This document shows positions 41,187 to 63,278 of a stretch of 64,000 nucleotides of DNA, piece by piece. The stretch is taken from NCBI GenBank assembly GCA_963971285.1, contig OZ020260.1, positions 9,582,798 through 9,646,797 of the forward strand, given 5' to 3'. The DNA comes from Astropecten irregularis. Taxonomy: Eukaryota; Echinodermata; Asteroidea; Paxillosida; Astropectinidae. Position numbers and translations under genes: made by a program. Position 1 is the first letter of the stretch. Each line of letters opens with the position of its first letter. The notes beneath the pieces are model-generated. The model did not search any database, was not told the DNA's origin, and saw only the letters and a list, made by a program, of their open reading frames with translations.

Positions 41187-42160
41187 CTAGACATTGTGGT
41201 TGTGGGAACAACCACTAGGTGTTCGGGGTCTCATTTTGTACTGGAACTGTTATGAGAATGTCTGTTGGAACGCATGTGTGGCATTATGAAATACACTAAA
41301 ACTGTGTGACTGAGCAAATACTGATCATGCTGAGTGCAGTGTATTCGTATTATATGTACACTGACTGATAGCGTATAGAGAATGGTGTCACCTTTAAATA
41401 ATGTAAAATTGCCCGGACGATAACTTCCGGTTAGTTAATCACAAACAACTGAAAATTTGCAAAAATCATTCAATGCATAGGATGTAAACAATTTGCAACT
41501 TTCACTGATGTACGTCATGTACTTAACGAGTAAACAGTATTTGAATAATGACATCATTTTCCCCTTAAAAATGCATAACTTCCGGTTGAATAACGTCACT
41601 GATTTTAAACTTTGCAAACATGTCAAGGTGCACTAGTGCTTTACACTCACCAAATTTGGCGGAAATCCGGTGTTTACTTTCGGATTACGTAATCACTGTA
41701 TATCTTTAAGCCACCGTAGAGGGCGCTATACAGCCCGTATGACGTCATTGTTGATATTTTCTGAAAGCCCAAGACCTACTCTATCTTTTAGCCCTCTCGG
41801 TTTTTTGTGCCCAAATCCTTCCGTTTTCGAGTTATTTTGAGTTAAACTTCAACTTCCGGTAACACCGGAAGTGAAGGTCATTTGTACACAACACTGAATA
41901 TATTAATTGTTGACATTCACGTGTTGAGTAACATATGTCAATATCAAAATCATAGGTCATGTGGTTCTCAAGTTATAAAGCACCAAAGTTTTTCCTAAAA
42001 ACGCGTGTAATTTGATACCCGATGACGTCATCATGACGTCAATCTTCTAAATACAACTTGGCATCATGACCGAAGTTCCCACTAAGTTTCAAGTCAATAT
42101 CTTGTAACTGTCATATAGAAGTCCTGCTGACAAGTTTGGGAAGAAGACAAATAAAAAAAA
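41187..42160 (+). mobile_element. Array element A1 (family A)
   Basis: It starts CTAGACATTGTGGTTGTGGG and ends CTGACAAGTTTGGGAAGAAG plus an A-rich tail, directly followed by the next CTAG. The body has three ACTTCCGG sites, the palindrome ACTTCCGGTAACACCGGAAG, GTAGAGGGCGCTATA and GATGACGTCATCATGACGTC. It is the simplest A copy (975 bp) and sets the reference. Confidence 0.85.
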
Positions 42161-43930
42161 CTAGACATTGTGGTTGTGGGAACAACCACTAGGTGTTCGG
42201 GGTCTCATTTCGTAGTTGAACTGTTATGTGAAGATGTTGGAACATAATTATGTGATCAATTAATGGCATATTGAAAGACACTTACACTGCGTGACTGAAA
42301 TACTGATTGCTTTATTCGTACACTTAACAGGCAGCTGAACAGTATAGAAAATGGCTTCACCTTAAAAAAAAATTATATTCAATGCATATTATGCATCACA
42401 AACAACAAAAATCTAGTGGCCCTTGTGTCTTTTATTTCTACCTCCATGCTCTGATCCATAAACCAAAATTTAATTTTGTTCATCATTATTAGGACTTTCC
42501 TCAAACAATTTGATTTATGAGGTCTGAAAGAAATAAATCTCTACAGTTATCATTGTACATCAGTCATCAGATGTATCCTGAGTTCCTTTATCATTTGAGT
42601 GTGTCTGTTTAAAACTTTAGCTCATAAAATGATATGCTCCCCCTTTGATTTTGTCTCCGTCATTTTCAAACATTGATAGTATTACCCAGTTTTTCGATAT
42701 TAATACCACTTGACCAGTTCATCAAACGTGTCAGCATTAGCTTTGACAAGAGCACTACTCCCAAAAGGATATTTCATGGAGTTGAAAAACACTATCCAAT
42801 AATGAAAATCAATGTCAATCTTTCAACCCGATTCTCACGGTGGATGGGATAAAGTTAACTTTATAACAGCAGTCGTCTGTACATGCAACATCATCATTCA
42901 ATTCTCAACGTGTTTTGCATCACAAGAGGGCGCTGTTGTAAGGACTCTATTCCAACAACAGAGAAACGATCATCGAGCTTGAACGTTAGGTGTTTATGCA
43001 GTTGATATATCACACATTGTATAATTATCGCCATCACAGACAACCAAATTTAAGTTTTAAAAAGTTTAAATCATGAAATGAAACGTACATTGTCCGGGAT
43101 TACATACATTGAATCAATTTATTCCAATATTTGAAAAAAATGTTCAATCACAATGGTGTACATCACCTTTAAAATATGCAATATTGTCATGACGATAACT
43201 TCCGGTTAGTTCATCACAGACAACTCAAAGTTTGCAGACATCATTCTATGCGGACAATGTAAATAGTTTGCAATTTTCATCGATGCACGTCACGTGATTA
43301 CTGAGTAAACAGTATTTGAATAATGACGTAAGTTCTCCTTTAAAAGAGCATAACTTCCGGTTGAATGACGTCACTACTTTCAAATTTCACAAACATGTCA
43401 AAGTGCATTTGTGCTTCACACCAACGAAATTTGGCAGAAATCCATTGTTTACTTTCGGATTACGTAATCACTGTATATCTTTAACCAACCGTAGAGGGCG
43501 CTATATAGCTCGCATGACGTCATCGTTTATATTTTCTGAAAGCCCAAGACCTTCTCTATCTTTTACCCCGCGGGGTTTTATGTGCCCAAATCCTTCCGTT
43601 TTCGAGTTATTTTGAGTCAAACTTCAACTTCCGGTGACACCGGAAGTGAAGGTCATTTGTACACAACATTGAATATATTAATTGTTGACATTCACGTGTT
43701 AAGTAACATATGTCAATCTCAAAATCATAGGTCATGTGGTTCTCAAGTTATTAAGTACCAAAGTTTTTCCTAAAAACGCGTGTAATTTGATACCCGATGA
43801 CGTCATCATGACGTCAATCTTCTAAATACAACTTGACATCATGACCAAAGTTCCCACCAAGTTTCATGTCATTATCTTGTTCCTGTGACCAAGAAGTCCT
43901 GCTGACAAGTTTGGGAAGAAAAAAATAAAA

Positions 43931-43962
<32 letters not shown>

Positions 43963-44007
43963 CTCGAACAATAACAATAGGTGTTCGGCTTGAACCCGAA
44001 CACCTAA
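42161..44007 (+). mobile_element. Array element A2 (family A, long form)
   Basis: It has the family A 5' end, then an extra 5' module of about 840 bp (42300-43140) shared with A10, then the standard A body. The 3' end carries one hairpin module (43979-44005) followed by AACTAG. Confidence 0.8.
43979..44007 (+). repeat. A-type 3' hairpin module at the A2/B1 junction
   Basis: ACAATAACAAT is followed by the stem AGGTGTTCGG / CCGAACACCT with loop CTTGAAC, then AA and CTAG. The left strand of the stem repeats the motif AGGTGTTCGG found just after the 5' hairpin of every A element. Confidence 0.8.
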
Positions 44008-45083
44008 CTAGAGATTGTGTCTATTGAAAACAGAACACAAGGCTTTTCCGTTTTATGATATTCAAATAAATTGTCAAAACCTTTTACACACAAAGACATT
44101 TGATTAAGATATTAAGCCTACTTTAAATATACTTGGTCATGTTTGTGTCAAAAAGAAAGACCTTGCCTAATATTAACATTTGGTGAAAGAATCCTGATCA
44201 TAGCTCTTACCACTTTTAAATGAGGAGCTACTTCAGGTTTGACCGGAAGTAGAGGTCAAAGGGGTTAACCAATGTATCACAAAGAAAGACCTTACCTTAC
44301 ATTCACTTTTTGTGAAAGAATCATGATCCTAGCTCTTACCACTTTTAAATGAGGAGCTACTTCCTGTTTGACCAGAAGTAGAGGTCACAGAGGTCTAGCA
44401 ATGTGACACAAATGAAAGACCTTGCCTAACATTGACCTTTGGTGAAAGAATCATGATCACAACTCTAAACACTTTTAAATTAGGATCTACTTCCTGTTTG
44501 ACCGGAAGTAGAGGTCACTGGGGTCAACCAATGTATCACAAAGAAAGACCTTGCCTAACATTGAGTTTTGGTGAAAGAATCATGATCATAGCTCTTACCA
44601 CTTTTAAATGAGGACCTACTTCCTGTTTGACCGGAAGTAGAGGTCACAGAGGTCAAGCAATGTGTCACAAATGAAAGACCTTGCCTAACATTGTCTATTG
44701 GTGAAAGAATCATGATCATAGCTCTTACCACTTTTAAATGAGGAGCTACTTCCTGTTTGACCGGAAGTAGAGGTCACAGAGGTCAAGTTATTTGTCACAA
44801 AGAAAGACCCTGCCTAACAATCACTTTTGGTGAAAGAATCAACTTAATATCTGAAACCGTTGATTTTTTGTTGATTTTTGAAGATTTTGATTTTTAAGTT
44901 CAAATTGCTTGTCACATGACACCTGATGACGTCATAACGACGAAAAGTTTCGGGAGACAACTTCCCTATATGGACTTCGTTCAGACCAAATTTGGTTAAA
45001 ATCGGCTATTAAAAAATGGCCGAAGTGCCGCAGACAAAATTTGTGTACAAAGTCAATACAAATTGAGGAGAAGAAGAAAAAAA
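44008..45083 (+). mobile_element. Array element B1 (family B)
   Basis: It starts CTAGAGATTGTGTCTATTGA. The middle is about five 130-bp tandem units (44139-44800). The end has TGACGTCATAACGACG, AAAGTGCCGCAGACAAAAT and a GAGGAGAAGAAG tail. There is no terminal hairpin. Confidence 0.8.
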
Positions 45084-46447
45084 CTAGAGGTTGTGTCTGT
45101 TGAAAACAGAACACATGGCTTTTCCGCATATGATAAAGAATATTTCTCAAATTGAATAAACATCGCTGATGTTGTTTGATTCAGCAAATAAATGATATCG
45201 TCTTCGGGAAATGATTTCTCGTTTTAATCAAAAGAGGGCGTTATTCAAAACCGTGCGCTTGGAAAACTGAATCCTGCATTACGGGTGCAGCCAAGTAAAT
45301 ACATGTAGTGGTAAAATGGGTCCGCCGAGCTCATGAATAAAAGTTTAGCACTCAATATATTTGAAATAAGAGAGTTGTGAGAGCTATGAAAATGAAGGAT
45401 TGAAGAAATATGGCACTGGACCTCCTGCCTGGACTCTGGGCTTCCATTTGTGACCATTTTTTGATGCAATTGTGTGAGAAAGTGGGCCTATTTCAGCCGC
45501 TTTAGAGGGATGTTTTTTTTTAATGGCTTCTTTGACTGGAGTGATCCGTACCTTGTTTTAGGGGTGGTCATGCTGAGAATGAGTATAACTCAAAAATTCT
45601 ACGGTCACCCTACCATAAAATGAAAAGAAAATGAAAGGTTACATGTTCATCGTCATTTTTCTGTGCAACTTGAACAGCTGTGAGAGTTCTGTATATTTTT
45701 TTAACGATTTTTGAAGTTTGGGGATTTATCACTGTTGTCCACGGGAGTTTATTTACTTGGGTGCAACCTTACGTACTGAAAACGGTATAAGTAGATTGCT
45801 GCGCGTGCGCGGTTGTCTGGTCAAAACACGGCTCTAAATCAGCATTTACGCTGCTTTGCTGGCAACTATGATAAGGAAGTAAATAAAAATACGGCATATA
45901 TAATCCAGGCAATCAAACATCCAAACGCGCCTTGTATTTATGTTGTTTATATCGTATGTTTTTTTTAATGACCAATATTTTCGCGTACAGAGCAACCTAC
46001 ATCGATAGCATTTCGATTAAGATTTGGTGCTGGTATTTAATGATATATAAAATGGAATTACGTGCAAACTATGGCAAGTTGTAAACGACGTTTTGTGTCA
46101 CGCAATCGGACATGTGCATTGTATGTTACACACAGTGAATTGCGTACGTAGGCCTACGTGTACACTGTACATAGTGTATGGGAAATTGATCGAGCTTTAT
46201 GTTTTGACAACGACCACGTTCACGTAATCTGTGTACAAAGTGAACGGGCTAGTTTGATAATTAAAAAAATCATATAAAATCAAGTTTTGACGTCATGATG
46301 ACGAAAAGTTTCGGGGAACAACTACCCTATATGGACTTCATTCAGACCAAGTTTGGTTAAGATCGGCTGTTTCAAAGTGACCAAAGTGCCGCGGACAAAA
46401 ATCTGTGTACAAAGTCTATGGGCCACAGCACAAACTCAAAAAAAATA
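45084..46447 (+). mobile_element. Array element B2 (family B 5' end, MITE inside)
   Basis: The 5' end is CTAGAGGTTGTGTCTGTTGA. It has no 130-bp units; instead it holds the GGGTGCAGCC MITE (45283-45769) and the module CATCGATAGCATTTCGATTA. The 3' end has AAAGTGCCGCGGAC and an A-rich tail. It is a close copy of C2 apart from the 5' hairpin. Confidence 0.8.
45283..45769 (+). mobile_element. MITE with GGGTGCAGCCAAGTAAATA ends, copy in B2
   Basis: The left end GGGTGCAGCCAAGTAAATA is mirrored by TATTTACTTGGGTGCAACC (45749-45768). The interior has GGCTTCTTTGACTGGAGTGA. Other copies lie at 51324-51818 and, diverged, 62758-63207. Confidence 0.7.
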
Positions 46448-46589
46448 CTAGAGATTGTGTCTGTTGAAAACAGAACACAAGGCTTTTCCGTTTAATGATA
46501 TTAAAATGAATTGTCAAAACCTTTAACACATAAAGACATTTGATTAAGATAATTAAGCCTACTTTTAAAATTCTTCGTCATTTTTCTGT

Positions 46590-47390
46590 CACAAATGAAA
46601 GACCTTGCCTAACATTGACTTTTGGTGAAAGAATCATGTTCATAGCTCTTACCACTTTTAAATGAGAAGCTACTTCCGGTTTGATCAGAAGTAGAGGTCA
46701 CAGAGGTCAAGTTATGTGTCAAAATGAATGACCTTGCCTAACATTCACTTTTGGTGAAAGAATCATGATCATAGCTCTTACCACTTTTAAATGAGGAGCT
46801 ACTTCCTGTTTGACCGGAATTAGAGGTCACAGAGGTCAAGCAATGTGTGACAAATGAAAGACCTTGCTTAACATTGACTTTTGGTGAAAGAATCATGATC
46901 ATAGCTCTTTTCACTTTTAAATGAGGAGCTACTTCCTGTTTGACCGGAAGTAGAGGTCACAGAGATCAAGTAATGTGCCACAAAGAAAGACCTTGCCTAA
47001 CATTGATATTTGGTGAAAGAATCATGATCCTAGCTCTTACCACTTTTAAATCAGGCGCTACTTCCTGTTTGACCGGAAGTAGAGGTCACAGAGGTCAAGC
47101 AATGTGTCACAAATGAAAGACCTTGCCTAGCATTGTCTATTGGTGAAAGAATCATGATCATAGCTCTTACCACTTTTAAATGAGGAGCTACTTCCTGTTT
47201 GACCGGAAGTAGAGGTCACAGAGGTCAAGTAATGTGTCACAATGAAAGACCTTGCCTAACATTGTCTATTGGTGAAAGAATCATGATCATAGCTCTTACC
47301 ACTTTTAAATGAGGAGCTACTTCCTGTTTGACCGGAAGTAGAGGTCACAGAGGTCAAGCAATGTGTCACACAGAAAGGCCCTACCTAACA
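46590..47390 (+). repeat. 130-bp tandem repeat block (largest, in B3)
   Basis: The unit runs GTCACAAATGAAAGACCTTG, GGTGAAAGAATCATGATC, CCACTTTTAAATGAGGAGCT, ACTTCCTGTTTGACCGGAAG, TAGAGGTCACAGAGGTCAAG. The period is 130 bases (for example 47101 to 47231). Other blocks: 44139-44800, 48890-49375, 49860-50130, 52600-52990, 53340-53890. In total there are about 24 units. Confidence 0.9.
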
Positions 47391-47659
47391 ATCACTTTTG
47401 GTGAAAGAATCAACTTAATATCTCAAACCGTTGATTTTTTGTTGATTTTTAAAGATTTTGATTTTTAAATTCAAATCGCTTGTCACGTGACCCCTGATGA
47501 CGTCATGATAGCGAAAAGTTTCGGGACACAACTACCCTATATGCACTTCCTTCAGACCAAGTTTGGTTAAAATCGCTTGTATAAAAGTGACCAAAGTGCC
47601 GCAGACAAAAACCTATGGTAACTCAAACGACAAGAAAAAGAAGAAAAAAGAAAAAAAAT

Positions 47660-47757
47660 CAGAACAAAAACAATACCTTTTCCGATTAAAATCGGAAAAG
47701 CCAAAAAAAAAACAGAACAAAAGTAATACCTTTTCCGATCACAATCGGAAAAGCCAA
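47660..47757 (+). repeat. B-type 3' hairpin module, two tandem copies
   Basis: Each copy has CAGAACAAAA, then TTTTCCGAT / ATCGGAAAA, then GCC and A-rich bases. Only the second copy is followed by CTAG. Confidence 0.8.
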
Positions 47758-48752
47758 CTAGACATTGTGGTTGTGGGAACAACCACTAGGTGTTCGGGTC
47801 TTATTTCGTAGTTGAACTGTTAAAATGTGAACATGTTGGAACGTATGTGATCAATCGTCCCTCATATAATGGCATTTCGAAATACATGTACGCTTAAACT
47901 GCGTGACTGAACAATACTGATCATACTGATTGCTGTATTCGTACACTGACTGATAGAGTATAGAAAATTGCGTCACCTTTAAATATACATAACATTGGCT
48001 GGACAATAACTTCCGGTCAGTTCATCACAGCTAGCTGAACATTTACAGAAGTCATTGAATGCATACGATGTATATATTTTACAATTTTCACCGATGTACG
48101 TCATGTACATGTAATTACTGAGTAAACAGTATTGGAATAATTCAGTAATTTTCCCTTTAAAAGAGCATAACTTCCGGTTGAATGACGTCACAGATTTTAA
48201 ACTTCACATACATGTCGAGGTACATTAGTGCTTTACACCTACTAAATTTGGCGGAAATTCATTGTTTACTTTCGGATTACGTAATCACTGCATGTCTTTA
48301 ATCAACCGTAGAGGGCGCTATACAGCCCGCATGACGTCATTGTTTATATTTTCTGAAAGCCCAAGACCTTCTCTATCTTTTACCCATGAGGTTTTTTGTG
48401 CCCAAAACCTTCCGTTTTCGAGTTATTTTGAGTCAAACTTCAACTTCCGGTAACACCGGAAGTGAAGGTCATTTGTACACAACACTGAATATAATAATTG
48501 TTGACATTCACGTGTTGAGTAACATATGTCAATATCAAAATCATAGGTCATGTGGTTCTCAAGTTATAAAGCACCAAAGTTTTTCCTAAAAACGGGTGTA
48601 ATTTGATACCCGATGACGTCATCATGACGTCAATCTTCTAAATACAACTTGGCATCATGACCGAGGTTCCCACTAAGTTTCAAGTCAATATCTTGTAACT
48701 GTCATATAGAAGTCCTGCTGACAAGTTTGGGAAGAAGACAAATAAAAAAAAA
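47758..48752 (+). mobile_element. Array element A3 (family A)
   Basis: Standard A body of 995 bp with CTAGACATTGTGGTTGTGGG at its start. It ends in GAAGACAAATAAAAAAAAA and has no terminal hairpin. Confidence 0.85.
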
Positions 48753-49654
48753 CTAGAGTTTATGGCTGTTAGAAACAGCGCATAAGGCTTTTTCGCATAA
48801 AAATTATGGCATTTTAAATTGATATATAAATATATAATATGCTATACAAAGAAAGGGATCACTCAATGAGACAAATGAAAAAAAATCATGATCCTAGCTC
48901 TTACCACTTTCTAATGAGGAGCTACTTCCTGTTTTGCCGGAAGAAGAGGTCACATAAGTCACGCAATGTGTCACAAATGAAAGACCTTGCCTAACATTGT
49001 CTATTGGTGAAAGAATCATGATCACAGCTCTTACCACTTTAAAATGAGGAGCTACTTCCTGTTTGACCGGAAGTTGAGGTCACAGTGGTCAAGCAATGTG
49101 TCACAAATGAAAGACCTTGCCTAACATTGTCTATTGGTGAAAGAATCATGATCATAGCTCTTACCACTTTTAAATGAGGAGCTACTTCCTGTTTGACCGG
49201 AAGTTGAGGTCACAGTGGTCAAGCAATGTATCACACAGAAAGACCTTGCCTAACATTCACTTTTGGTGAAAGAATCATGATCCTAGCTCTAACCACTTTT
49301 AAATGAGGAGCTACTTCCTGTTTGACCGGAAGTAGAGGTCACAGAGGTCAAGAAAAGTGTCACAAAGAAAGACCCTGCCTAACAATCACTATTGGTGAAA
49401 GAATGAACTTAATATCTCAAACGGTTGATTTTTTGTTGATTTTTGAAGATTTTGATTATTAAATTCAAATCGCTGGTCACATGACACCTGATGACGTCAT
49501 CATGATGAAAAGTTTCGGGAGACAACTACCCTATATGGACTTCCTTCAGACCAAGTTTGGTTAAAATCGGCAGTTTAAAAGTAGCCAAAGTGCCGCAGAG
49601 AAAAAGTCTATGGTAACTCAAGCGACAAGAAGAAGAAGAGGAAGAAGAAAAAAA
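48753..49654 (+). mobile_element. Array element C1 (family C)
   Basis: It starts CTAGAGTTTATGGCTGTTAG. About four 130-bp units (48890-49375) are followed by the B/C end with GATGACGTCATCATGATG. The tail is GAAGAAGAAGAGGAAGAAG. Confidence 0.8.
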
Positions 49655-51137
49655 CTAGAGGTTGTGTCTGTTGAAAACAGAACACATGGCTTTTCCGCAT
49701 ATGATATAGAACATTTCTCAAATTGTATAACTTATTTTGTCAGTTTAAGACATTTGGTTTAAAAGTATCAATTATTTCAATGTAGAAAACTAAAGTTAAA
49801 CAAATAGTTGCAGGGTTTATGGAACACATTGCTTGTCATTTAGAATTGTGTCACAAAAAAAAATTGCCTAACATTGACTTTTGGTGAAAGAATCATGATC
49901 AAAGCCCTTACCACTTTGAAGTGAGAAGCTACTTCATGTTTGACCGGAAGTAGAGGTCACAGAGGTCAAGCAATGTGTCACAAATGAAAGACCTTGCCTA
50001 ACATTGTCTATTGGTGAAAGAATCATGATCACAGCTCTTACCACTTTTAAATGATGAGCTACTTCCTGTTTGACCGGAAGTAGAGGTCACAGAGGTCAAG
50101 CAATGTGTCACAAAGAAAGACCCTGCCTAACAATCACGTTTGGTGAAAGAAGCAACTTAATATCTCAAACCGTTGATTTTTTGTCGATTTTCAAATAACA
50201 TAATGACACCACCACAGTTTCTTGGTTTAATCCAAAGAGGGCGCCATTCAAAACCGTGTGCTCGATTCATGCATTACTTGAAAGGTAGATTGTTACGCAT
50301 GCGTAGTTGTCTTGTCAAAACAGTATTTCCGCTGGCGACTATGATAAGGAAATGAAAAGAAACACTGCATATATAACACAGGCAATCAACCATTTGCCCG
50401 CGCCTTGCATTTAATGACCAATATTTTCACGTACAAGTCAATGGGCTAGCGTGAAAAATATTTAAAAAAATCATAAAAAATAAACAAATGAAGCTGTCTT
50501 GACGTAACTTCATAATTACGATCCCGAACCTCCATTTTACCAACCTACCAATTTTCAAGGTGATTAGCCGTTCCTGCTATGCGTTATAAAAATTGCATTT
50601 TTTATGACGTCATGATGACGTCACCGATTTTTTGTCTACGCAGTGTTCATTTATGGTGCATGCTGAAGAATTATCAAAAAGAAATTCAAAGATATCTTGT
50701 TTCGTTTACTAGATATCGTTAAAAGAACTTTAATGACCCAAAATTTCAATAAATCATAAAAAATCAGGGAATGACGTCACGATGACGTCATTGCAATTTT
50801 TCGATATAACACTTCCCGACTTAGATACATACCAAGTTTCAACTCAATCGGACTTAGGGTTCGTTCATAATTGATGTCTGAAGTTTGCCCCTTTAAGACA
50901 CTGTCACGTGACACCTGATGACGTCATGATGACAAAAATGTTGCGCACACAACTACCCTACGGGGACTTTGTTTTGACCAAGTTTGGTTGAAATCGGCTG
51001 TTTAAAAATGACCAAAGTGCCGCACACAAAATTTGTGTACAAAGTCAATACAAATTGAGGAGAAGAAGAAGAAGAAGAAGAAAAAAAAAAAACAGAACAA
51101 AAACAATACCTTTTCCGATTCAAATCGGAAAAGCCAA
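49655..51137 (+). mobile_element. Array element B4 (family B)
   Basis: The 5' end is CTAGAGGTTGTGTCTGTTGA. It has two 130-bp units (49860-50130), then a long unique part rich in TGACGTCA. It ends with one hairpin module (51111-51132) and CCAACTAG. Confidence 0.8.
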
Positions 51138-52502
51138 CTAGAGTTTATGGCTGTTGAAAACAGCACATATGGCTTTTCCGCATATGATATAGAATATTTC
51201 TCTAATTAAATACACATCGCTGATGTTGTTTGATTCAGCAAATAAATGATATCGTCTTCGGGAAATGATTTCTCGTTTTAATCAAAAGAGGGCGTTATTC
51301 AAAACCGTGCGCTCGGAAAATACGGGTGCAGCCAAGTAAATACATGTAGTGGCCAAATGGGTCCGCCGAGCTCATGAATAAAAGTTAAGCACTCAATATA
51401 TTTGAAATAAGAGAGTTGTGAGAGCTATGAAAATGAAGGATTGAAGAAATATGGCACTGGACCTCCTGCCCGGTCTCTGGGCTTCCATTTGTGAGCATGT
51501 TTGATGCAATTGGGTGAGAAAGTGGGTCTATTTCAGCCGCTTTGCAGAGGGATGTTTTTTTTTTTTTTGAAAATGGCTTCTTTGACTGGAGTGATCCGTA
51601 CCTTGTTTTAGGGGTGGTCAGCTGAGAATGAGTATAACTCAAAAATTCAACCGTCACCCTACCATAAAATGAAAAGAAAATGAAAGGTTACATGTTCATC
51701 ATCATTTTTCTGTGCAACTTGAACAGCTGTGAGAGTTCTGTATATTTGTTAACGATTTTTGAAGTTTGGGGATTTATCACTGTTGTCCGCGGGAGTTTAT
51801 TTACTTGGGTGCAACCTTACGTACTGAAAACGGTATAAGTAGATTGCTGCGCGTGCGTGGTTGTCTGGTCAAAACACGGGTCAAAACCAGCATTTACGCT
51901 GCTTTGCTGGAAACTATGATAAGGAAGTAAATGAAAAAACGGCATATATAATCCAGGCAATCAAACATCTGAACGCGCCTTGTATTTATGTTGTTGACAT
52001 CGTATGTTTTATTTAATGACCAATATTTTCACGTACAGAGCAACCTACATCGATAGCATTTCGATTAAGATGTGGTGCTGGTATTTAATAATATATAAAA
52101 GGAATTACGTGCAAACTATGGCAAGTTGTAAACGACGTTTTGTGTCACGCAATCGGACATGTGCATTGTATGTTACACACAGTGAATTGCGTACGTAGGC
52201 GTAGGCCTACATGTACACTGTACATAGTGTATGGGAAATTGATCGAGCTTTATGTTTTGTACAACGACCACGTTCACGTAATCTGTGTACAAAGTGAACG
52301 GGCTATAAAATATTTTTAAAAAATCATATAAAATCAAGTTTTGACGTCATGATGATGAAAAGTTTCGGGGCACAACTACCCTATATGGACTTCATTCAGA
52401 CCAAGTTTTGTTAAGATCGGCTGTTTAAAAGTAACCAAAGTGCCGCGGAGAAAAATCTGTGTACAAAGTCTATGGGCCACAGAACAACCTCAAAAAAAAA
52501 TA
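51138..52502 (+). mobile_element. Array element C2 (family C 5' end, MITE inside)
   Basis: The start is CTAGAGTTTATGGCTGTTGA. The rest nearly duplicates B2, with the MITE at 51324-51818 and the same 3' part. It shows that 5' ends have been exchanged between families. Confidence 0.8.
51324..51818 (+). mobile_element. MITE with GGGTGCAGCCAAGTAAATA ends, copy in C2
   Basis: Nearly identical to the copy at 45283. It was carried along when B2/C2 duplicated, since flanks on both sides also match. Confidence 0.7.
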
Positions 52503-53259
52503 CTAGAGTTTATGGCTGTTGAAAACAGCACATAAGGCTTTTCCGCATATGATATAAATTCCTTTTCAATAAGAATTTTGCCGCTAATTAAGATCGACCT
52601 TCCCTAACATTGCCTTTTGGTAAAAGAATTATGATCCTAGCTCTTACCCCTTTTAAACAAGGAGCTACTTCCTGTTTGACCGGAAGTAGAGGTCACAGGG
52701 GTCAACCAATATGTCACAAAGAAAGACCTTGCATAACATTTACTTTTGGTGAAAGAACCATGATCCTAGCTCTTAACACTTTTAAATGAGGAGCTACTTC
52801 CGGTTTGACCGGAAGTAGAGGTCACAGAGGTCAAGCAATGTGTCACAAAGAAAGACCTTGCCTAACATTGATATTTGGTGAAAGAATCATGATCCTAGCT
52901 CTTACCACTTTTAAATGAGGAGCTACTTCCTGTTTGACCGGAAGTAGAGGTCACAGAGGTCAAGCAATTTGTCACAAAGAAAGACCCTGCCTAACAATCA
53001 TTTTTGGTGAAAGAATCAAGTTAATATCTCAAACCGTTGATTTTTTGTAGATTTTTGAAGATTTTGATTATTAAATTCAAATCACTTGTCACATGACACC
53101 TGATGACGTCATAATGTTAAAAATTTTCGGGAGACAACTACCCTATATGGACTTCCTTCACACCAAGTTTGGTTAAAATCGGCAGTTCAAAAGTAGCCAA
53201 AGTGCCGCAGAGAAAAAGTCTATGGTAACTCAAGCGACAGGAAGAAGAGGAAGAAGAAA
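52503..53259 (+). mobile_element. Array element C3 (family C)
   Basis: The shortest member. It has CTAGAGTTTATGGCTGTTGA, about three 130-bp units (52600-52990), the B/C 3' part and a GAAGAAGAGGAAGAAG tail. Confidence 0.8.
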
Positions 53260-54344
53260 CTAGAGTTTATGGCTGTTTGAAACAGCACATAAGGCTTTTC
53301 CGCATATGATATAAATTGCTTGTCAATCAGATCGAATTGTGTCATTAGAAAGAACTTCCCTTACATTGACATTTGGCGAAAGAATCATGATCAAAGCTCT
53401 TACCACTTTTAAATGAGGAGCAACTTCCGGTTTGACCGGAAGTAAAGGTCACCGAGGTCAAGTTATGTCTCACAAAGAAAGATCTTGCCTAACATTGATA
53501 TTTAGTGAAAGAATCATGATCCTAGCTCTTACCATTTTTAAATGAGGAGCAACTTCCTGTTTGACCGGAAGAAGAGGTCACCCAGGTCAACTTATGTATC
53601 ACAATGAAAGACCTTGCCTAACATTGACTTTTGGTAAAAGAATCATGATCCTAGCACTTACCACTTTTAAATGAGGAGCTACATCCGGTTTGACCGGAAG
53701 TAGAGGTCACAGAAATTAACCAGTATGTCACATAGAAAGACCTTGCCTAGCATTGACTTTTGGTGAAAGAATCATGATCCTAGCTCTTACCACTTTTAAA
53801 TGAGGAGCTACTTCCGGTTTGACCGGAAGTAGAGGTCACAGAGGTCAACCAATGTGACACAAAGAAAGACCTTACCTATCATTGACATTTAGCGAAGGAA
53901 TCAATCTAATATCTCAAACGGTTGATTTTTTGTTGATTTTTGAATATTTTGATTATTAAATTCAAATCGCTTGTCACGTGACACCTGATGACGTCACGAT
54001 TATGAAAAGTTTCGGGAGACAACTACCCTATATGGACTTCCTTCAGACCAAGTTTAGTTAAGATTGACTGTTTAAAAATTACAAAAGTGGCTCCGAGAAA
54101 ACCCCTGTGCTTTGTCTATGGGAATTTTGGCGACAAGAAGAGGAAGAGGAAGAAGAGGAAGAAGAGGAAGGAAGAAAAAAAAAAAAAAAACAGAACAAAA
54201 ATAAAGGCTTTTCGCTTCCGCGAAAAAGCCAAAAAAAAAAACAGAACAAAAATAAAGGCTTTTCGCTTCCGCGAAAAAGCCAAAAAAACAGAACAAAAAT
54301 AAAGGCTTTTCGCTGCCGCGAAAAAGCCAAAAAAAAAAAAAAAA
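53260..54344 (+). mobile_element. Array element C4 (family C)
   Basis: About four 130-bp units (53340-53890) follow the C-type 5' hairpin. The 3' end has three hairpin modules in tandem (54206-54230, 54257-54281, 54304-54328) before the next CTAG. Confidence 0.85.
54188..54344 (+). repeat. C-type 3' hairpin module, three tandem copies
   Basis: Each copy has CAGAACAAAAATAAA and the stem GGCTTTTCGC / GCGAAAAAGCC with small loop changes (TTCC or TGCC). Only the last is followed by CTAG. Confidence 0.8.
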
Positions 54345-55443
54345 CTAGACATTGTGGTTGTGGGAACAACCACGAGGTGTTCGGGGTCTCATTTCGTACT
54401 GGAACTGTTAAGAGAATGTTTGATGGAACGCGTGTATGGCATAAATATTGAAATACACTGAAACTGTGTGACCGAGCAAGTACTGATCATGCTGATTGCA
54501 CAGTGTATTCGTACATGTACACTGACTGATAGCGTATAGAAAATCAATCGTGTCACCTTTAAAAAATGTAAAATTGCCCGGACGATAACTTCCGTTTAGT
54601 TAATCACAAACAACTGAAAATTTGCAGAAATCATCGAATGCGTACAATGTAAACAATTTGCAATTTGCACTGATGTACGTCATGTAATTACTGAATAAAC
54701 AGTATTTGAATAATTACATAATGTTTCCTTTAAAAACGCATAACTTCCGGTTGAATGACGTCACAGATTTCAAACTTCACACATATGTCAAGGTACAATA
54801 GTGCTTCAAACTCACCAAATTTGGCGGAAATCCGTTGTTTACTTTTGGATTACGTAATCACTGTATATCTTTAATCCACCGTAGAGGGCGCTATACAGCC
54901 CGTATGACGTCATCGTTTATATTTTCTGAAAGCATAAGACCTACTCTATCTTTTTGCAAAGCAATTGTATGTGCCCAAAACTTTTCCGATTTTGAGTTAT
55001 TTTGAGTCAAAGTTCAACTTCCGGTAACACCGGAAGTGAAGGTCATTTGTACACAACATTGAATATATTAATTGTTCAGATTCATGTGGTGAGTAACATA
55101 TGTCAATATCAAAATCATAGGTCATGTGGTTCTCAAGTTATAAAGCACCAAAGTTTTTCATTAAAACGCGTGTAATTTGATACCCGATGACGTCATCATG
55201 ACGTCAATCTTCTAAATACAACTTGACATCATGACCAAAGTTCCCACCAAGTTTCATGTCAATATCTTGTACCTGTGACCAAGAAGTCCTGCTGACAAAT
55301 TTGGGAAGAAAAAAAAAAAAGAAAAAAAAAAAAAGAAAAAAAACTCGAACAATAACAATAGGTGTTCGGCTTGAACCCGAACACCTAAAAAAAACTCGAA
55401 CAATAACAATAGGTGTTCGGCTTGAACCCGAACACCTAAAAAA
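54345..55443 (+). mobile_element. Array element A4 (family A)
   Basis: Standard A body. It ends with two A-type hairpin modules (55360-55386, 55411-55437) and a short A run before CTAG. Confidence 0.85.
55343..55443 (+). repeat. A-type 3' hairpin module, two tandem copies
   Basis: Two copies of ACTCGAACAATAACAATAGG with the closing arm CCGAACACCTAA. Their centres are 51 bases apart. Confidence 0.8.
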
Positions 55444-56422
55444 CTAGACATTGTGGTTGTGGGAACAACCACTAGGTGTTCGGGGGGTTATTTCGTAGTG
55501 GAACTGTTATGTGAACATGTTGGAAGTGATCAATCGTCCCTCAGATAATGGCATATCGAAATACATGTACACTTAAACTGCGTGACTGAACAAATACTGA
55601 TCATTCTGATTGCTGTATTCGTACACTGACTGCTAGAGTATAGAAAATTGCGTCACCTTTAAATATACATAACATTGGCTGGACAATAACTTCCGGTCAG
55701 TTCATCACAGCTAACTGAACATTTATAAAAGTCATTGAATGCATACGATGTAAATATTTTGCCATTTTCACTGATGTACGTCATGTACTTAAAGAGTAAA
55801 CAGTATTTGAATTATTACATCATTTTCCCTTTAAAAACGCATAACTTCCGGTTGAATGACGTCACTGATTTCAAACTTCGCAAATATGTCAAGGTGCACT
55901 AGTGCTTCACACTCATCAAATTTAGCGGAAATCCGAAGTTCACTTTCGGATTACGTAATCACTGTATATCTTTAAGCCACCGTAGAGGGCGCTATACAGC
56001 CCGTATGACGTCATTGTTTATATTTTCTGAAAGCCCAAGACCTGTTCTATCTTTTACCCATGAGGTTTTTTGTGCCCAAATCCTTCCGTTTTCGAGTTAT
56101 TTTGAGTCAAACTTCAACTTCCGGTAACACCGGAAGTGAAGGTCATTTGTACACATCATTGAATATATTAATTGTTGACATTTACGTGTTGGGTAACATA
56201 TGTCAAAATCAAAATCATAGGCCATGTGGTTCTCAAGTTATAAAGCACCAAAGTTTTTCCTAAAAACGCGTGTAATTTGATACCCGATGACGTCATCATG
56301 ACGTCAATCTTCTAGGTACAACTTGACATCATGACCGAAGTTCCCACCAAGTTTCAAGTCAATATCTTGTAACTGTCATATAGAAGTCCTGCTGACAAGT
56401 TTGGGAAGAAGACAAATAAAAA
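55444..56422 (+). mobile_element. Array element A5 (family A)
   Basis: Standard A body of about 980 bp with tail GAAGACAAATAAAAA and no terminal hairpin. Confidence 0.85.
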
Positions 56423-57924
56423 CTAGACTTGTGGTTGTGTGAACAACCACTAGGTGTTCGGGGTCTCATTACGTGGTGGAACTGTTATGTGAACATAAAA
56501 GTTATGTTGGAACGTATGTGGTCAATTGTCGCTCATCCTCATACAATGGCATATTGAAATACACACTAAATTTTGAATATGATGTAAATATCTTGCAGTT
56601 TTTATTTTGTTTGATTAAGACATATGGTTTACAAGTGACCATATCTCAACGTAAAGAAACTTAATTTTAGCCCATGGAGTTTAGTTGCAGTGTTTATGGA
56701 ACACATTGTCATTTGACAAAATGATGTACAATACTCCGCAACCTACATCGATAGCATTTCGATTAAGATTTGGTGCTGGTATTTAATGATATATAATAAG
56801 ATTTACGTGCAAATATATCTATAGCAAGATGTAAACAAAGTTTTGAGTCACACAATTGGACATTACATGTACATGTGTACATGTTCTACACAGTGAATTA
56901 TGTACAATTTTTGTACATATATAGTGTATGGGAAAAAGAGTCAATCGATCATCATATTTTTTGTACATGACCATATTTTCACGTAACACAATGTGAGAAT
57001 AATTAAAAAATTCATATAAAATCAAGAGATGCCGTAAATGTTCATTTCAAATCTACGCTGTAAGAACTTTGTCTGGGCCTTTGTATGGTTAAAATTGACT
57101 GTTTAAAAGTGTATGAGGTGTATCAAACTCCTGTGTTGAGGCTATCATGTGTTTCCACTGAGACAATGTAATGAAGCACATTCCAATCACCTTGCAATGA
57201 CTGCCATCTGGTACTAATCAGAGTCTCTTGTAATCACATTACAAGCAGTTTTCACTGATGTACTCATGTGATTACTGAGTAAACAGTATTGGAATAATTT
57301 AGTAATTTTCCCTTTAAAAGAGCATAACTTCCGGTTGAATGACGTCACAGATTTCAAACTTCACATACATGTCGAGGTACATTAGTGCTTTACACCTACT
57401 AAATTTGGCGGAAATTCATTGTTTACTTTCGGATTACGTAATCACTGTATGTCTTTAATCAACCGTAGAGGGCGCTATATAGCCCGCATGACGTCATTGT
57501 TAATATTTTCTGAAAGCCCAAGACCTTTTCTATCTTTTACCCATGAGGTTTTTTGTGCCCAAATCCTTCCGTTTTCGAGTTATTTTGAGTCAAACTTCAA
57601 CTTCCGGTAACACCGGAAGTGGAGGTCATTTGTACACAACATTGAATATATTAATTGTTGTGATTTACGTGTTGAGTAACATATGTTAATCTCAAAATCA
57701 TAGGTCATGTGGTTCTCAAGTTATAAAGCACCAAAGTTTTTCCTAAAAACGCGTGTAATTTGATACCCGATGACGTCATCATGACGTCAATCTTCTAAAT
57801 ACAACTTGACATCATGACCAAAGTTCCCACCAAGTTTCATGTCATTATCTTGTACCTGTGACCAAGAAGTCCTGCGGACAAATTTGGGAAGAAAAAAATA
57901 AAAAGTAAAAAAAAAAAAAAAAAA
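56423..57924 (+). mobile_element. Array element A6 (family A, mosaic)
   Basis: The 5' end is slightly altered (CTAGACTTGTGGTTGTGTGA). The first half is replaced by a module with CATCGATAGCATTTCGATTA, which B2 and C2 also carry. The second half is standard A. Confidence 0.8.
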
Positions 57925-59597
57925 CTAGACATTGTGATTGTAGTAACAACCACTAGGTGTTCGGGGTCTCATTTCGTAGTGGAACTGTTATATGAACGTA
58001 TGTTGGAATATATGAGATCAATCATCCCTCATATGATGGCATACTGAAACACATACATACACATAAACTGCGTGACTGTACAAAATACTTTGATCATGTT
58101 GATTGCTTATTTGTACATTGACTGACTGATTATGGAAATGGCGTCACCTTTAAATATATATAATATTGTTTGGACAATAATATGATGTGTTGCAGTTTTA
58201 TTTTGTTTGGTTAAGACATATGGTTTACAAGTGACCATATCTCAACGTAAAGAAACTTAATTTTAGCCCATGGAGTTTAGTTGCAGTGTTTATGGAACAC
58301 ATTGTCATTTGATAAAATGATGTACAATACTCCGCAACCTACATCGATAGCATTTCGATTAAGATTTGGTGCTGGTATTTTATGATATATAATAAGATTT
58401 ACGTGCAAATATATCTATAGCAAGATGTAAACAAAGTTTTGAGTCACACAATTGGACATTACATGTACATGTACATGTTCTACACAGTGAAATTTTGAAC
58501 ATATATAGTGTATGGGAAAAAGAGTCAATCGATAATCATTTTTTTGTACATGACCATATTTTCACGTAACACAATGTGAGAATAATTAAAAAATTCATAT
58601 AAAATCAAGAGATGCCGTAAATGTTCATTTCAAATCTACGCTGTAAGAACTTTGTCTTGGCCTTTGTATGGTTAAAATTGACTGTTTAAAAGTGTATGAG
58701 GTGTATCAAACTCCTGTGTTGAGGCTATCATGTGTTTCCACTGAGACAATGTAATGAAGCACATTCCAATCACCTTGCAATGACTGCCATCTGGTACTAA
58801 TCAGAGTCTCTTGTAATCACATTACAAGCAGTTTTCACTGGTGTACTCATGTAATTACTGAGTAAACAGTATTGGAATAATTCAGTAATTTTCCCTTTAA
58901 AAGAGCATAACTTCCGGTTGAATGACGTCACAGATTTCAAACTTCACATACATGTCGAGGTACATTAGTGCTTTACACCTACCAAATTTGGCGGAAATTC
59001 ATCGTTCACTTTCAGATGACGTAATCACTGTATGTCTTTAATCAACCGTAGAGGGCGCTATATAGCCCGCATGACGTCATTGTTTATATTTTCTGAAAGC
59101 CCAAGACCTTCTCTATCTTTTACCCATGAGGTTTTTTGTGCCCAAATCCTTCCGTTTTCGAGTTATTTTGAGTCAAACTTCAACTTCCGGTAACACCGGA
59201 AGTGGAGGACATTTGTACACAACATTGAATATATTAATTGTTGAGATTTACGTGTTGAGTAACATATGTCAATCTCAAAATCATAGGTCATGTGGTTCTC
59301 AAGTTATAAAGCACCAAAGTTTTTCCTAAAAACGCGTGTAATTTGATACCCGATGACGTCATCATGACGTCAATCTTCTAAATACAACTTGACATCATGA
59401 CCAAAGTTCCCACCAAGTTTCATGTCATTATCTTGTTCCTGTGACCAAGAAGTCCTGCGGACAAGTTTGGGAAGAAAAAAATAAAAAAAAGGAAAAAAAA
59501 AACTCGTACAATTACAATAGGTGTTCGGCTTGAACCCGAACACCTAAAAAAACTCGAACAATAACAATAGGTGTTCGGCATGAACCCGAACACCTAA
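57925..59597 (+). mobile_element. Array element A7 (family A, mosaic)
   Basis: The same mosaic as A6 (58185-58830 is nearly identical to 56575-57240). It ends with two hairpin modules (59519-59545, 59569-59595) and AACTAG. Confidence 0.8.
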
Positions 59598-60569
59598 CTA
59601 GACATTGTGGTTGTGGGAACAACCACTAGGTGTTCGGGGTCTCATTTTGTACTGGAACTGTTAAGAGAATGTTTGATGGAACGCATGAGTGGCATATTGA
59701 AATACACTTAAACTGTGTGACTGAGCAAATACTGATCATGCTGATTGCACAGTGTATTCGTACATGTACACTGACTGATAGCGTATAGAAAATCGTGTCA
59801 CCTTTAAATAATGTAAAATTGCCCGAACGATAACTTCCGTTTAGTTAATCACAAACAACTGAAAATTTGCAGAAATCATCGAATGCGTACAGTGTAAACA
59901 ATTTGCAATTTGCACTGATGTACGTCATGTAATTACTAAATAAACAGTATTTGAATAATTACATAATATTTCCTTTAAAAACGCATAACTTCCGGTTGAA
60001 TGACGTCATAGATTTCAAACTTCACACATATGTCAGGGTGCAATAGTGCTTCAAACTCACTAAATTTGGCGGAAATCCGTTGTTTACTTTTGGATTACGT
60101 AATCACTGTATATCTTTAATCCACCGTAGAGGGCGCTATACAGCCCGTATGACGTCATCGTTTATATTTTCTGAAAGCCTAAGACCTACTCTATCTTTTT
60201 GCAAAGCAATTGTATGTGCCCAAAACCTTTCCGATTTTGAGTTATTTTGAGTCAAAGTTCAACTTCCGGTAACACCGGAAGTGAAGGTCATTTGTACACA
60301 ATATTGAATATATTAATTGTTCAGATTAATGTGGTGAGTAACATATGTCAATATCAAAATCGTAGGTTATGTGGTTCTCAAGTTATAAAGCACCAAAGTT
60401 TTTCCTAAAAACGCGTGTAATTTGATACCCGATGACGTCATCATGACGTCAGTCTTCTAAATACAACTTGACATCATGACCAAAGTTCCCACCAAGTTTC
60501 ATGTCAATATCTTGTACCTGTGACCAAGAAGTCCTGCTGACAAGTTTGGGGAAAAAAAATTAAAAAAAA
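59598..60569 (+). mobile_element. Array element A8 (family A)
   Basis: Standard A body, closest to A4. The tail is A-rich and there is no terminal hairpin. Confidence 0.85.
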
Positions 60570-61533
60570 CTAGACATTGTGGTTGTGGGAACAACCACTA
60601 GGTGTTCGGGGTCTCAATTCGTACTGGAACTATTATAAGAATGTCTGTTGGAACGCATGTGGGGCGTTGAAATACACTTAAACTGTGTGACGAGCAAATA
60701 CTGATTTGTATTCGTATTATGTACAATGACTGATAGCGTATAGAAAATGGTGTCACCTTTAAATAATGTAAAATTGCCCAGACGATAACTTCCGGTTAGT
60801 TCATCACAAACAACTGAAAATTTGCAGAAATCATCGAATGCGTACGACGTAAACAATTTGCAATTTGCACTGATGTACGTCATGTAATTACTGAATAAAC
60901 AGTATTTGAATAATAACATCATGTTTCCTTTAAAAACGCATAACTTCCGGTTGAATGACGTCACAAATTTCAAACTTCACACATAGGTCGAGGTGCATTA
61001 GTGCTTCACACTTACCAAATTTGGCGGGAATCCGTTTTTTACTTTTGGATTACGTAATCACTGTATAACTTTAATCCACCGTAGAGGGCGCTATACAGCC
61101 CGTATGACGTCATCGTTTATATTTTCTGAAAGCTTAAGACCTACTCTATCTTTTACCCTGCGAGGTTTTATGTGCCAAAATCCTTCCGTTTTCGAGTTAT
61201 TTTGAGTCAAACGTCAACTTCCGGTAACACCGGAAGTGAAGGTCATTTGTACACAACACTAAATATGTTAATTGTTGAGATTCACGTGTTGAGTAACATA
61301 TGTCAATATCAAAATCGTAGGTCATGTGGTTCTCAAGTTATAGACCACGAAAGTTTTTCATAAAAACGCGTGTAATTTGATACCCGATGACGTCATCATG
61401 ACGTCAATCTTCTAAATACAACTTGACATCATGACCAAAGTTCCCACCAAGTTTCATGTCAATATCTTGTACCTGTGACCAAGAAGTCCTGCTGACAAGT
61501 TTGGGAAGAAAAAAAAAAAAGAAAAAAAAAAAA
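60570..61533 (+). mobile_element. Array element A9 (family A)
   Basis: Standard A body with tail GGGAAGAAAAAAAAAAAAG and no terminal hairpin. Confidence 0.85.
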
Positions 61534-62635
61534 CTAGACATTGTGGTTGTGGGAACAACCACTAGGTGTTCGGGGTCTCATTTCGTAGTTGAACTGTTAT
61601 GTAAACATGTTGGAACGTATGTGATCAATTAATGACATATTGAAATACACTTACACTGCGTGATTAAATACTGATCATCCTGATTGCTTTTTTCGTACAC
61701 TGGTTGATCGGTATAGAAAATGGCTTTACCTTTAAAAAAGAATTATATCCAATGCATATTATGCATCACAAACAAAAATATAGTGGCCCTTGTGTCTTCT
61801 ATTTCTACCTCCATGCTCTGATCCATAAACCAAAATTCAATTTTGTTCATCATTATTATATTAGGACTTTCGTCAAATTTGATTTATGAGGTTTGAAAGA
61901 AAAGAATCTCTACAGTTATCATTGTATATCAGTCATCAGATGTATCCTGAGTTTCTTCATCATTTGAGTCATATGTCTGTTTAAAACCTTAGCTCATAAA
62001 ATGATATAATGCTCCCCCTTTGATTTTGTCTCCGTCATTTTTAAATTTTGAAACTAAACCCATTTTTCCGATATTACCACTTTATAAGTTGCATCAAACG
62101 TGTCCTCGTACTTGACATGAGCACTACTCCTCATTGAATGATATTTCATGGAGTTGAACAACACTATCCAATAATGAAAATCTATGTCAATCGTTTTGTC
62201 CGATTCTCACGATGGATGGGATAAAGTTATCTTTATAACAGTCGCCTTTGCTTGAACATCATTGTTCAATTTGCAACGTGTTTTTGCAAGCATAAATTAA
62301 TTAATTACAAAAGTGCATCACAAGAGGGCGCTGTTGTATTATTCCAACAACAGAGAAACGATCGAGCGTGAACGTTAGGTGTTATGCAGTTTATATATCA
62401 CACAAAATAATCACATATTGTATATCGCCATCACAGACAACAAAATTGAAGTTTTCAAAAGTTTCATGAAATGGTACGTTCTCCGGGATTACATACATTG
62501 AATCAATTCCTGCCAATATTTGAAAAAAAAAATTCAATCATAATGGTAATATCAAAATCGTAGGTCATGTGGTTCTGAAGTTATGGGGCACCAACCTTTT
62601 TCCTAAAAACGCTTTTAATTTGCCACTTTGTGTTT
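61534..62635 (+). mobile_element. Array element A10 (family A, long form, 3' truncated)
   Basis: It has the family A 5' end and the extra module seen in A2. The A body is missing except for a short piece (ATCGTAGGTCATGTGGTTCT, 62555-62630), and similarity then stops. There is no closing CTAG, so the right edge of the array is eroded. Confidence 0.7.
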
Positions 62636-62757
62636 TCGGGCATTAAAATTGGGGTGGGTGGCAACACGAAGCTAAAAATTAATTGTAATTGCCTTAATTT
62701 AATGTTTACAGCTTTTTCTGCGTGTTTTTGAAAGTTTTTGGACAATCACCGTATACG

Positions 62758-63207
62758 GGGTGCAGACCAGGAAATAGGCCTAGGCCCATTACGGTCCGCG
62801 GAGGCCATTAAATTTCTGTATACCTTCAAAATCTTTTCTATGGTGAGCCCTAAGTACGTGGGAAGTCCGACTTGTAGACAAATTGGATGGAACACGATTA
62901 CCAGGGGATGGTCTTTCACCTTTGAGCCATTTGGATGAAATCAGGCCTTAAATTCATTTTATTTTTGCCCTGTATGTTGGTCTGTCACCGGTCAATTGGG
63001 CCGTTTTAGGGGTATTTTTCTTTGAATGTACTTTTCGGCAAAAAGTCATGCGTTAACCTATAGGAAATTGAAAAGAAAATGAAAATTGAAGTTTTCACCT
63101 TTATTTTGCCGTATTGGTCGATTGCTTCAGAAACGTCTGAGTATTTTTAATAATTTTTGGGCATTTGGCGTGGAACCCTATGGGAATTTATTTACTGGTC
63201 TGCACCC
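62758..63207 (+). mobile_element. Diverged MITE with GGGTGCAGACCAG ends
   Basis: GGGGTGCAGACCAGGAAATA at the left is mirrored by ATTTACTGGTCTGCACCC at the right. The interior keeps GAAAAGAAAATGAAA and GGGAATTTATTTACT as in the other copies. It is the only copy outside the array. Confidence 0.65.
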
Positions 63208-63278
63208 GTGTACAAACGTTTTCAGGAGAACTATAGTTTGCTGCCCTCTTTCGACAGACTGCTCTAAAAGTTTCTCAA

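Follow-up and report, generated by a model that had tools for sequence, protein, structure and literature searches.

The window analysed here, a stretch of 64,000 nucleotides on contig C24 (GenBank OZ020260.1, positions 9,582,798 to 9,646,797) of the 475.7-Mb genome of Astropecten irregularis, contains between positions 41187 and 62635 an array of 18 non-coding elements of three classes (ten A, four B, and four C), which differ in their first ~45 nt. The elements are HINEs, i.e., non-autonomous Helentrons, and the array has most likely grown because new copies kept landing in the T-run that lies near one end of the older copies. A first-pass annotation, made from the letters alone, had listed 18 elements in one orientation with an A-rich tail or a hairpin against each following CTAG, and all its starts were found again. 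Specifically, all 18 CTAGA starts are on the plus strand, every start directly abuts the preceding element, and 17 of 17 internal junctions fall at CTAG, 11 of them joining an A-rich tail and six joining one or more hairpins plus A's to the next CTAG. At two of the 17 junctions (46448 and 52503), TA takes the place of AA before CTAG. No open reading frame (ORF) of at least 150 aa overlaps 41187-62635, and tandem repeats of ~129 bp occur in B and C elements. Neighbouring A elements show ~75-97 percent alignment identity, and the classes of neighbours are mixed (A-B, B-A, A-C, C-B, B-C, and C-A).

The array and its surroundings

Read along the plus strand, the array opens with A element 1 (41187-42160), whose CTAG is the outermost one and adjoins non-HINE DNA (CAAACCAAA/CTAG, the slash marking the border), and continues with A element 2 (42161-44007), which ends with one A-type 5' hairpin of the subterminal inverted repeat (subTIR; pattern start at 43967). 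Three B elements come next, namely element 3 (44008-45083), the core of which is a 129-bp tandem repeat, element 4 (45084-46447), and element 5 (46448-47757), with two B-type 5' subTIR hairpins (47663 and 47716). They are followed by A element 6 (47758-48752), C element 7 (48753-49654), B element 8 (49655-51137) with one B-type hairpin (51096), and the C elements 9 (51138-52502), 10 (52503-53259), and 11 (53260-54344), the last with three C-type hairpins (54194, 54245, and 54292). The rest of the array is of class A: element 12 (54345-55443) with two A-type hairpins (55348 and 55399), elements 13 (55444-56422) and 14 (56423-57924), element 15 (57925-59597) with two A-type hairpins (59507 and 59557), elements 16 (59598-60569) and 17 (60570-61533), and element 18 (61534-62635), which is truncated near 62635 and lacks a T-run or hairpin end. 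All 18 elements are assigned to the minus strand, which is probably the strand of transposition.

The 40-nt terminus of class A has 1035 matches in the genome with up to three mismatches and the reversed control has none, so that its recurrence is not due to chance. On contig C1, 94 exact termini form 45 clusters (23 single, 11 double, and 11 larger) and neighbours up to 15 kb apart lie on the same strand in 48 of 49 cases, while smaller arrays with non-HINE DNA on both sides are found at other loci. Because of these many clusters, the strand agreement, and the smaller arrays between foreign flanks, the assembled sequence makes it unlikely that the array is an assembly artefact. A second array on the same strand lies ~31 kb to the right of the first (L007:9417-L008:4340); it begins where the Helentron that separates the two arrays ends on the right and holds an A, a C, and an A element with piled hairpins. 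At two places on C1 (10287727 and 10300788), A termini have opposite-strand hairpins ~100 bp off (10287825 and 10300886), unlike the usual layout. Moreover, a fourth family is represented at L006:815-955 by a tail that is built in the same way (A-run, AACAAAAACAAA, hairpin AGCTGTTCCG..CGAAACAGCT, then AA) and was first taken for a Helentron end, an assignment that was not confirmed.

An RNA family reading of the locus was rejected: an Rfam scan of 40500-63500 gave five matches, each under its family's own threshold (for example, Atu_L1 with 23.5 of the 60 bits needed and Histone3 with 20.5 of 34). A search pattern of four CTAGs was uninformative. A repeat with ends like GGGTGCACCCAAGTAAATA / TTTACTTGGGTGCACCC occupies ~45290-45778 in element 4 and recurs in the matching part of element 9, in L038, and at ~62700-63220 beside the array; on visual inspection, it resembles a DNA transposon or foldback in its own right that has been carried along. 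Lastly, the window contains a minisatellite-like region at 31625-32756 with long repetitive frames on both strands.

Element ends, target site, and the autonomous partner

The ends of the elements can be read from copies outside arrays. Twenty C1 copies were examined, picked for the absence of a close exact listed neighbour, although many of them in fact adjoined diverged copies or exceeded the fetched stretch. Five complete single copies between non-HINE flanks (L027, L034, L037, L042, and L043) start with AA/CTAG and end with an A-run and hairpin directly against AA, without CTAG, and a sixth (L030) has the same ends but two hairpins. A further copy, L041, interrupts another A element in mid-body, flanked by AA at either end and without CTAG at that site; its flanks rejoin to a text that is also found in element 6, and in this sole comparison of a filled with an empty site, TT on both sides leaves the insertion point ambiguous by 2 bp. 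Complete doubles and the right edges of arrays likewise end with hairpin/AA and no CTAG. Since solitary copies carry CTAG at one end only, this sequence belongs to the element itself and forms its 3' terminus.

Read on the minus strand, an element has the structure TT/AGGTGTTCGG..CCGAACACCT..T-run..body..CCGAACACCTA-GTGGTTGTTCCCACAACCAC-AATGT-CTAG/TT. The palindromic subTIR AGGTGTTCGG stands right after TT at the 5' end with the T-run just inside it, the inverted subTIR copy CCGAACACCTA terminates 29 nt short of the 3' end, and the 3' hairpin GTGGTTGTTCCCACAACCAC terminates 9 nt short of it, followed by 5 nt and a CTAG of the CTRR type. Thus, the "A-rich tail plus hairpin" of the plus strand is the T-run plus palindromic subTIR of the 5' end on the minus strand. 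In the same reading, TT follows CTAG in 19 of the 20 C1 copies; AA/CTAG stands at 49 of 52 distinct starts in a wider scan, which left out duplicate flanks and some diverged elements, and at 88 of the 94 exact C1 termini, corresponding to a T-T target.

These ends bear on what the first-pass annotation had proposed. Its assignment to non-autonomous Helentrons or HINEs holds, by architecture and by the ends shared with Helentrons described below, and so does its reading of CTAG as a Helitron-type CTRR end preceded by a hairpin. Its orientation has to be reversed, as the claimed 3' tail and hairpin are the 5' end and the claimed 5' hairpin with CTAG is the 3' end. It had also proposed that each copy inserted at the CTAG of an older one with a 4-bp CTAG target duplication. 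Every array junction does lie at CTAG, as this predicts, but CTAG is absent from the hairpin side of the solitary copies (L027, L030, L034, L037, L042, and L043), from the mid-body AA site of L041, and from the right edges of arrays, which read hairpin/AA; the solitary copies refute the duplication, and we give it practically no credence. The annotation had expected solitary ends to coincide with CTAG: one end does and the other does not, as a one-sided terminus predicts. Cassette recombination of the integron or Crypton type was dropped because array edges lack CTAG.

A self-inserting retroelement, resembling a short or long interspersed nuclear element (SINE or LINE) with a poly-A tail and a precise 5' end, would have a parallel in Zepp of Chlorella and would account for the A-rich plus-strand tail with GAA repeats and for the A-rich insertion sites. 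The subterminal inverted repeats, the hairpin at the CTAG end, the hairpin beyond the supposed tail, and the sharing of both ends with Helentrons that encode Rep and helicase speak against it, and such an origin is hardly conceivable here. The idea of a Replitron, an element with a Y1 HUH enzyme, was dropped once a partner with Rep, PIF1, and an endonuclease had been found.

That partner, the autonomous element sharing both ends that the first-pass annotation had suggested looking for, is a Helentron. The Helitron_like_N domain (PF14214) has at least 149 matches in the genome, 94 of them inside open frames longer than 3000 aa, and none in 14 control genomes; some of the frames form same-strand series with a spacing of ~20-25 kb (C11, C14, C15, and C20). 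One Helentron lies 16-26 kb to the right of the array, between the first and the second array, with an ORF of 3236 codons (L006:4602-L007:4309). Its protein, the only one subjected to an all-domain Pfam scan, contains Helitron_like_N, PIF1, and Exo_endo_phos domains, as well as OTU in its N part, Herpes_teg_N, and DUF6570. The Rep motif VEFQQRGSPHTH has the Helentron-type serine and Rep motif 2, FYRVEFQQRGSPHTH, has S between RG and P, again of the Helentron type. Echinoderm proteins are among its best named relatives (60 percent identity in Asterias amurensis). Just downstream of the ORF, L007:4454-5920 contains tandem repeats with CCAGTCAGGATGATCAGTATGTAA-like units.

Helentrons share both of their ends with the HINEs. 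On the right, a query taken from downstream of this ORF is matched at nine other loci as far as its end, where HINE-A sequence starts, and a listed Rep lies upstream on the same strand at eight of the nine, the locus at 10.2 Mb of C1 having none. The four of these loci that were read (L053-L056) pass through the same join into an A element from nt 204-230; altogether, the Helentron 3' region runs into the right half of HINE-A through this join in five copies, four with a listed Rep upstream. From nt 204-230 on, the right ~1.6 kb of element 2 of the window corresponds to Helentron right ends; element 2 is thus a composite of a left piece and the right 1.6 kb of a Helentron.

On the left, six loci (four read and two aligned) have a CTAG terminus of type A or B on the strand of Rep, 7.5-10.1 kb upstream of it. 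At L049, between two Helentron ORFs, a hairpin tail ends at 6643 and is followed by a C HINE and then by a B-type CTAG terminus at 7671, from which ~240 bp of B-like DNA lead into the DNA upstream of the next Helentron ORF. Three further loci (L050, L051, and L035+L052) have A-type termini that give way to non-HINE DNA. L052 shows 86 percent likeness to the DNA upstream of the L006/L007 Helentron and is therefore linked to the gene by sequence too, whereas for L050 and L051 the link consists of distance and strand. A 1451-bp query from L050 spans the terminus at two further Helentron loci (C1:10386181-10387619 in full and C30:10928577-10929566 in pieces), and its third match (C17:8106663) has no listed Rep nearby. 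A complete-looking Helentron of ~18.9 kb extends on C1 from the terminus at 4885274 to hairpins at 4866367-4866464; for the one at C24:9666829, no left end could be located. The Helentron gene runs from the CTAG end to the subTIR/T-run end, opposite to the strand that shows the HINE layout, and none of 37 C1 Reps is followed, within the next 11 kb, by an A terminus of opposite orientation. The left region of the L050 Helentron also holds a ~360-bp repeat (L050:1304-1661, query 155-512) with at least 36 places at 87-90 percent identity, which looks like a separate interspersed repeat.

Apparent nested order and proposed growth of the array

With the orientation settled, the array can be read in a bracket code in plus orientation, in which each CTAG terminus is written "(" and each 5' hairpin ")". 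Insertion of one copy within another predicts (()). Conversely, a rolling-circle concatemer, in which a missed terminator or replication of a circle yields a head-to-tail multimer that is inserted as one block, predicts ()()(), each unit having one hairpin and resembling its neighbours. Most of the weight is carried by complete small arrays. Three of the four complete doubles with non-HINE flanks on both sides (L045, L047, and L057, by eye; L048 and L058 were excluded because their ends lie beyond the stretch) read A(A(a)a). L059 combines three hairpins with two termini, upstream of which lies the tail of a further copy; a third start, sought because the bracket count required one, is found in L061 next to non-HINE DNA, so that L059+L060+L061 form the triple A(A(A(a)a)a). 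The order in L008 is a C element, a B-type hairpin, and two A-type hairpins, as expected for a C copy inside an A copy. Of the 11 hairpins of the window, 10 agree in class (A, or B and C merged) with the last open element, a score that 1.4 percent of shuffles of the hairpin classes reach. Overall, 5' hairpins pile up at one array edge like closing brackets.

The survey of C1, based on exact matches and with hairpins up to 27.0 Mb, points in the same direction. Adjacent events within 6 kb lie on the same strand in 111 of 115 cases, and in the 29 clusters with both marks a terminus comes first in 28 and a hairpin comes last in 27. The 20 clusters with more than two events contain 27 open-open, 26 close-close, and 10 close-open steps, although marks missed by exact matching inflate the first two counts. 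A free shuffle of the marks predicts 24.9 close-open steps and never fell as low as 10 in 5000 trials, a contrast that is overstated because the shuffle ignores that clusters start with a terminus.

A concatemer has been the published account for the tandem Helitrons of bats and silkworm, in which the "termination signal is bypassed" according to the passage concerned (PMC4067079), and for plant arrays as summarised in PMC12628747. In this genome, it could draw on the six window junctions that read hairpin/CTAG, on L050, which reads )()(, and on the 10 close-open steps of the C1 clusters. The surplus of open-open and close-close steps, the nested order of three of the four complete doubles, the mixed classes of window neighbours, and the ~75-97 percent likeness of adjacent A elements all oppose it; as the main builder of the arrays it is disfavoured, and we consider it improbable. 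The precise rolling-circle end-joining offered by the first-pass annotation is likewise probably not the main builder, as the hairpins pile up in the way that nesting predicts and different families are joined, while its suggestion of self-targeting stands: the elements target their own kind.

A different way of enlarging an array starts from a few insertions and multiplies them by unequal crossing-over or segmental duplication. It is suggested by two A copies of L008 (1166 and 3234), which resemble recent duplicates, and by elements 4 and 9, which are 93.6 percent alike from end to end and have the same following junction text; these pairs suggest that block copying also contributed, and it may add to large arrays. 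As the main mode of spread, this process is unlikely, although less so than the concatemer, since it leaves unexplained the mixed bodies, the many separate loci, the single copies at the same kind of site, and the last-in-first-out order of the hairpins.

We therefore favour, with a probability of roughly 0.85, an array of HINEs nested via their own T-run and moved by Helentrons of the same genome. The HINEs would be internally deleted, non-coding Helentrons mobilised by the Helentron Rep/helicase/endonuclease, presumably with rolling-circle chemistry. A new copy would enter at TT without adding CTAG to the target, and the T-run present in every copy would be a favoured target that is entered in the same orientation, because T-T targets read on one strand make inserts into T-runs point alike. 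After entry, the new CTAG end would abut the T-run of the old body and the old 5' hairpin would be displaced outward, and repeated rounds would result in a nested array with about one hairpin per element stacked at the 5' edge.

Several observations weigh against this scheme or qualify it. Among the seven singles, L030 has two hairpins, which fits a nested element that moved with two 5' ends, by analogy with a proposal in passages on the FoHeli elements of Fusarium (PMC5148889); the fourth complete double, L046, reads A(A(a) with one hairpin, which fits the loss of a hairpin or an insert without one. The hairpin/CTAG junctions of L050 and of the 10 close-open C1 steps are real and require insertion beside, rather than inside, an old copy, which therefore also occurs. 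On C1, 36 clusters have one mark only (hairpins in 26 and termini in 10), and when the first and last marks are fixed, 13.7 close-open steps are expected and 258 of 5000 shuffles are as low as 10; the order test is thus only suggestive, and confidence in nesting is slightly lowered. In the window, one A hairpin stands where a C-type is due, and elements are left unclosed because element 18 is truncated. The genome totals of A hairpins (1200, up to two mismatches in 31) and termini (1035, up to three in 40) follow unequal mismatch rules and agree only in order of magnitude, the filled/empty comparison is a single one (L041 against the text of element 6), and the subTIR copy 29 nt from the 3' end lies outside the 38-60 nt of mite HINEs.

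The target preference seems to exceed T-runs as such. In 201 kb of nearby non-array DNA, the density of A/T runs of at least 8 is 448 per Mb, corresponding to ~213,000 per genome, of which the ~1200 HINE-A T-runs would make up ~0.6 percent. In contrast, at least 24 of the 94 exact C1 termini follow an exact A terminus of the same strand at a distance of 0.9-1.1 kb, some with a hairpin at the junction, and a 25th pair at this spacing is on opposite strands; by this rough estimate, the disparity points to a preference beyond T-runs. Transposase binding at the neighbouring subTIR could be the cause. More specifically, and tentatively, since we hold it to be rather less probable than its contrary, transposase on the 5' subTIR of a resident copy might actively steer incoming circles into the adjacent T-run. 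If so, the element would carry its own landing pad, its growth would be confined to nested arrays, and chimeras with several 5' ends could arise and move again.

Comparison with known Helentrons and Helitron arrays

Arrays of Helitrons arranged head to tail are commonly quoted as a trace left by rolling-circle replication. The bracket-readable order separates nested insertion from a concatemer by sequence alone and here favours nesting, and the nested pattern argues against the terminator-bypass account usual for tandem Helitrons. A transposon with a preferred target at a fixed place is a simple route to satellite-like arrays of one orientation, and nested arrays are a natural record of the order of insertion. 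The open-access literature searched, as far as its accessible passages go, yielded no description of bracket-like nested HINE arrays.

According to the passages on their architecture in Thomas et al. 2014 (PMC4067079), HINEs and Helentrons have a 5' palindromic subTIR 2-4 nt from the 5' end, an inverted copy 38-60 nt and a palindrome 8-35 nt from the 3' end, and a Rep with the motif VExQxRGSPHxH. The elements of A. irregularis agree in the 5' subTIR, in the inverted copy, which is slightly nearer to the 3' end (29 nt), in the 3' hairpin ending 9 nt from the end, in the T-T target without evident duplication, in the central tandem repeats, in the Rep motif, and in being deletion derivatives of Rep/Helicase/AP-endonuclease elements, the partner with Rep, PIF1 helicase, and a C-terminal AP endonuclease being present in the same genome. 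They differ from the HINEs of those passages in the CTAG 3' end, reported there for the intermediate proto-Helentron-Pi, and in the T-run beside the 5' subTIR and the nested arrays. The usual Helentron gene runs toward the 3' hairpin end, whereas here the gene has the CTAG end upstream of it, on its own strand; a gene opposite to the transposition strand is an exception in PMC4067079 (Helentron-Da-40A.1), and reversed genes are known exceptions in the passages of both PMC5148889 and PMC4067079. Compared with the canonical Helitron (Helitron1), the 3' CTRR with a hairpin ~11 nt upstream has a counterpart (hairpin, 5 nt, CTAG), but insertion is at T-T rather than A-T and the 5' end is TT/AGG rather than TC.

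The HINEs of the Pacific oyster (Cg_HINE) are also non-coding Helentron derivatives with satellite-like central repeats, and the passages available in PMC7492417 concern these repeats rather than nested arrays. FoHeli shares the non-canonical ends and reversed ORFs, and self-insertion has been proposed in the FoHeli passages to yield elements with several 5' termini; these self-insertions are single cases, whereas here there are many arrays, about one hairpin per copy, and entry at the T-run (PMC5148889). Lastly, the tandem Helitrons of bats, silkworm, and plants are likewise head-to-tail rolling-circle elements, ascribed in the relevant passages to terminator bypass or rolling-circle amplification (PMC4067079, PMC5876387, PMC12628747), and for plants many arrays are described there as having multiple 5' ends and a single 3' end. 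In A. irregularis, unlike these tandem Helitrons, every copy retains the CTAG at its 3' end, and it is the 5' ends that accumulate.

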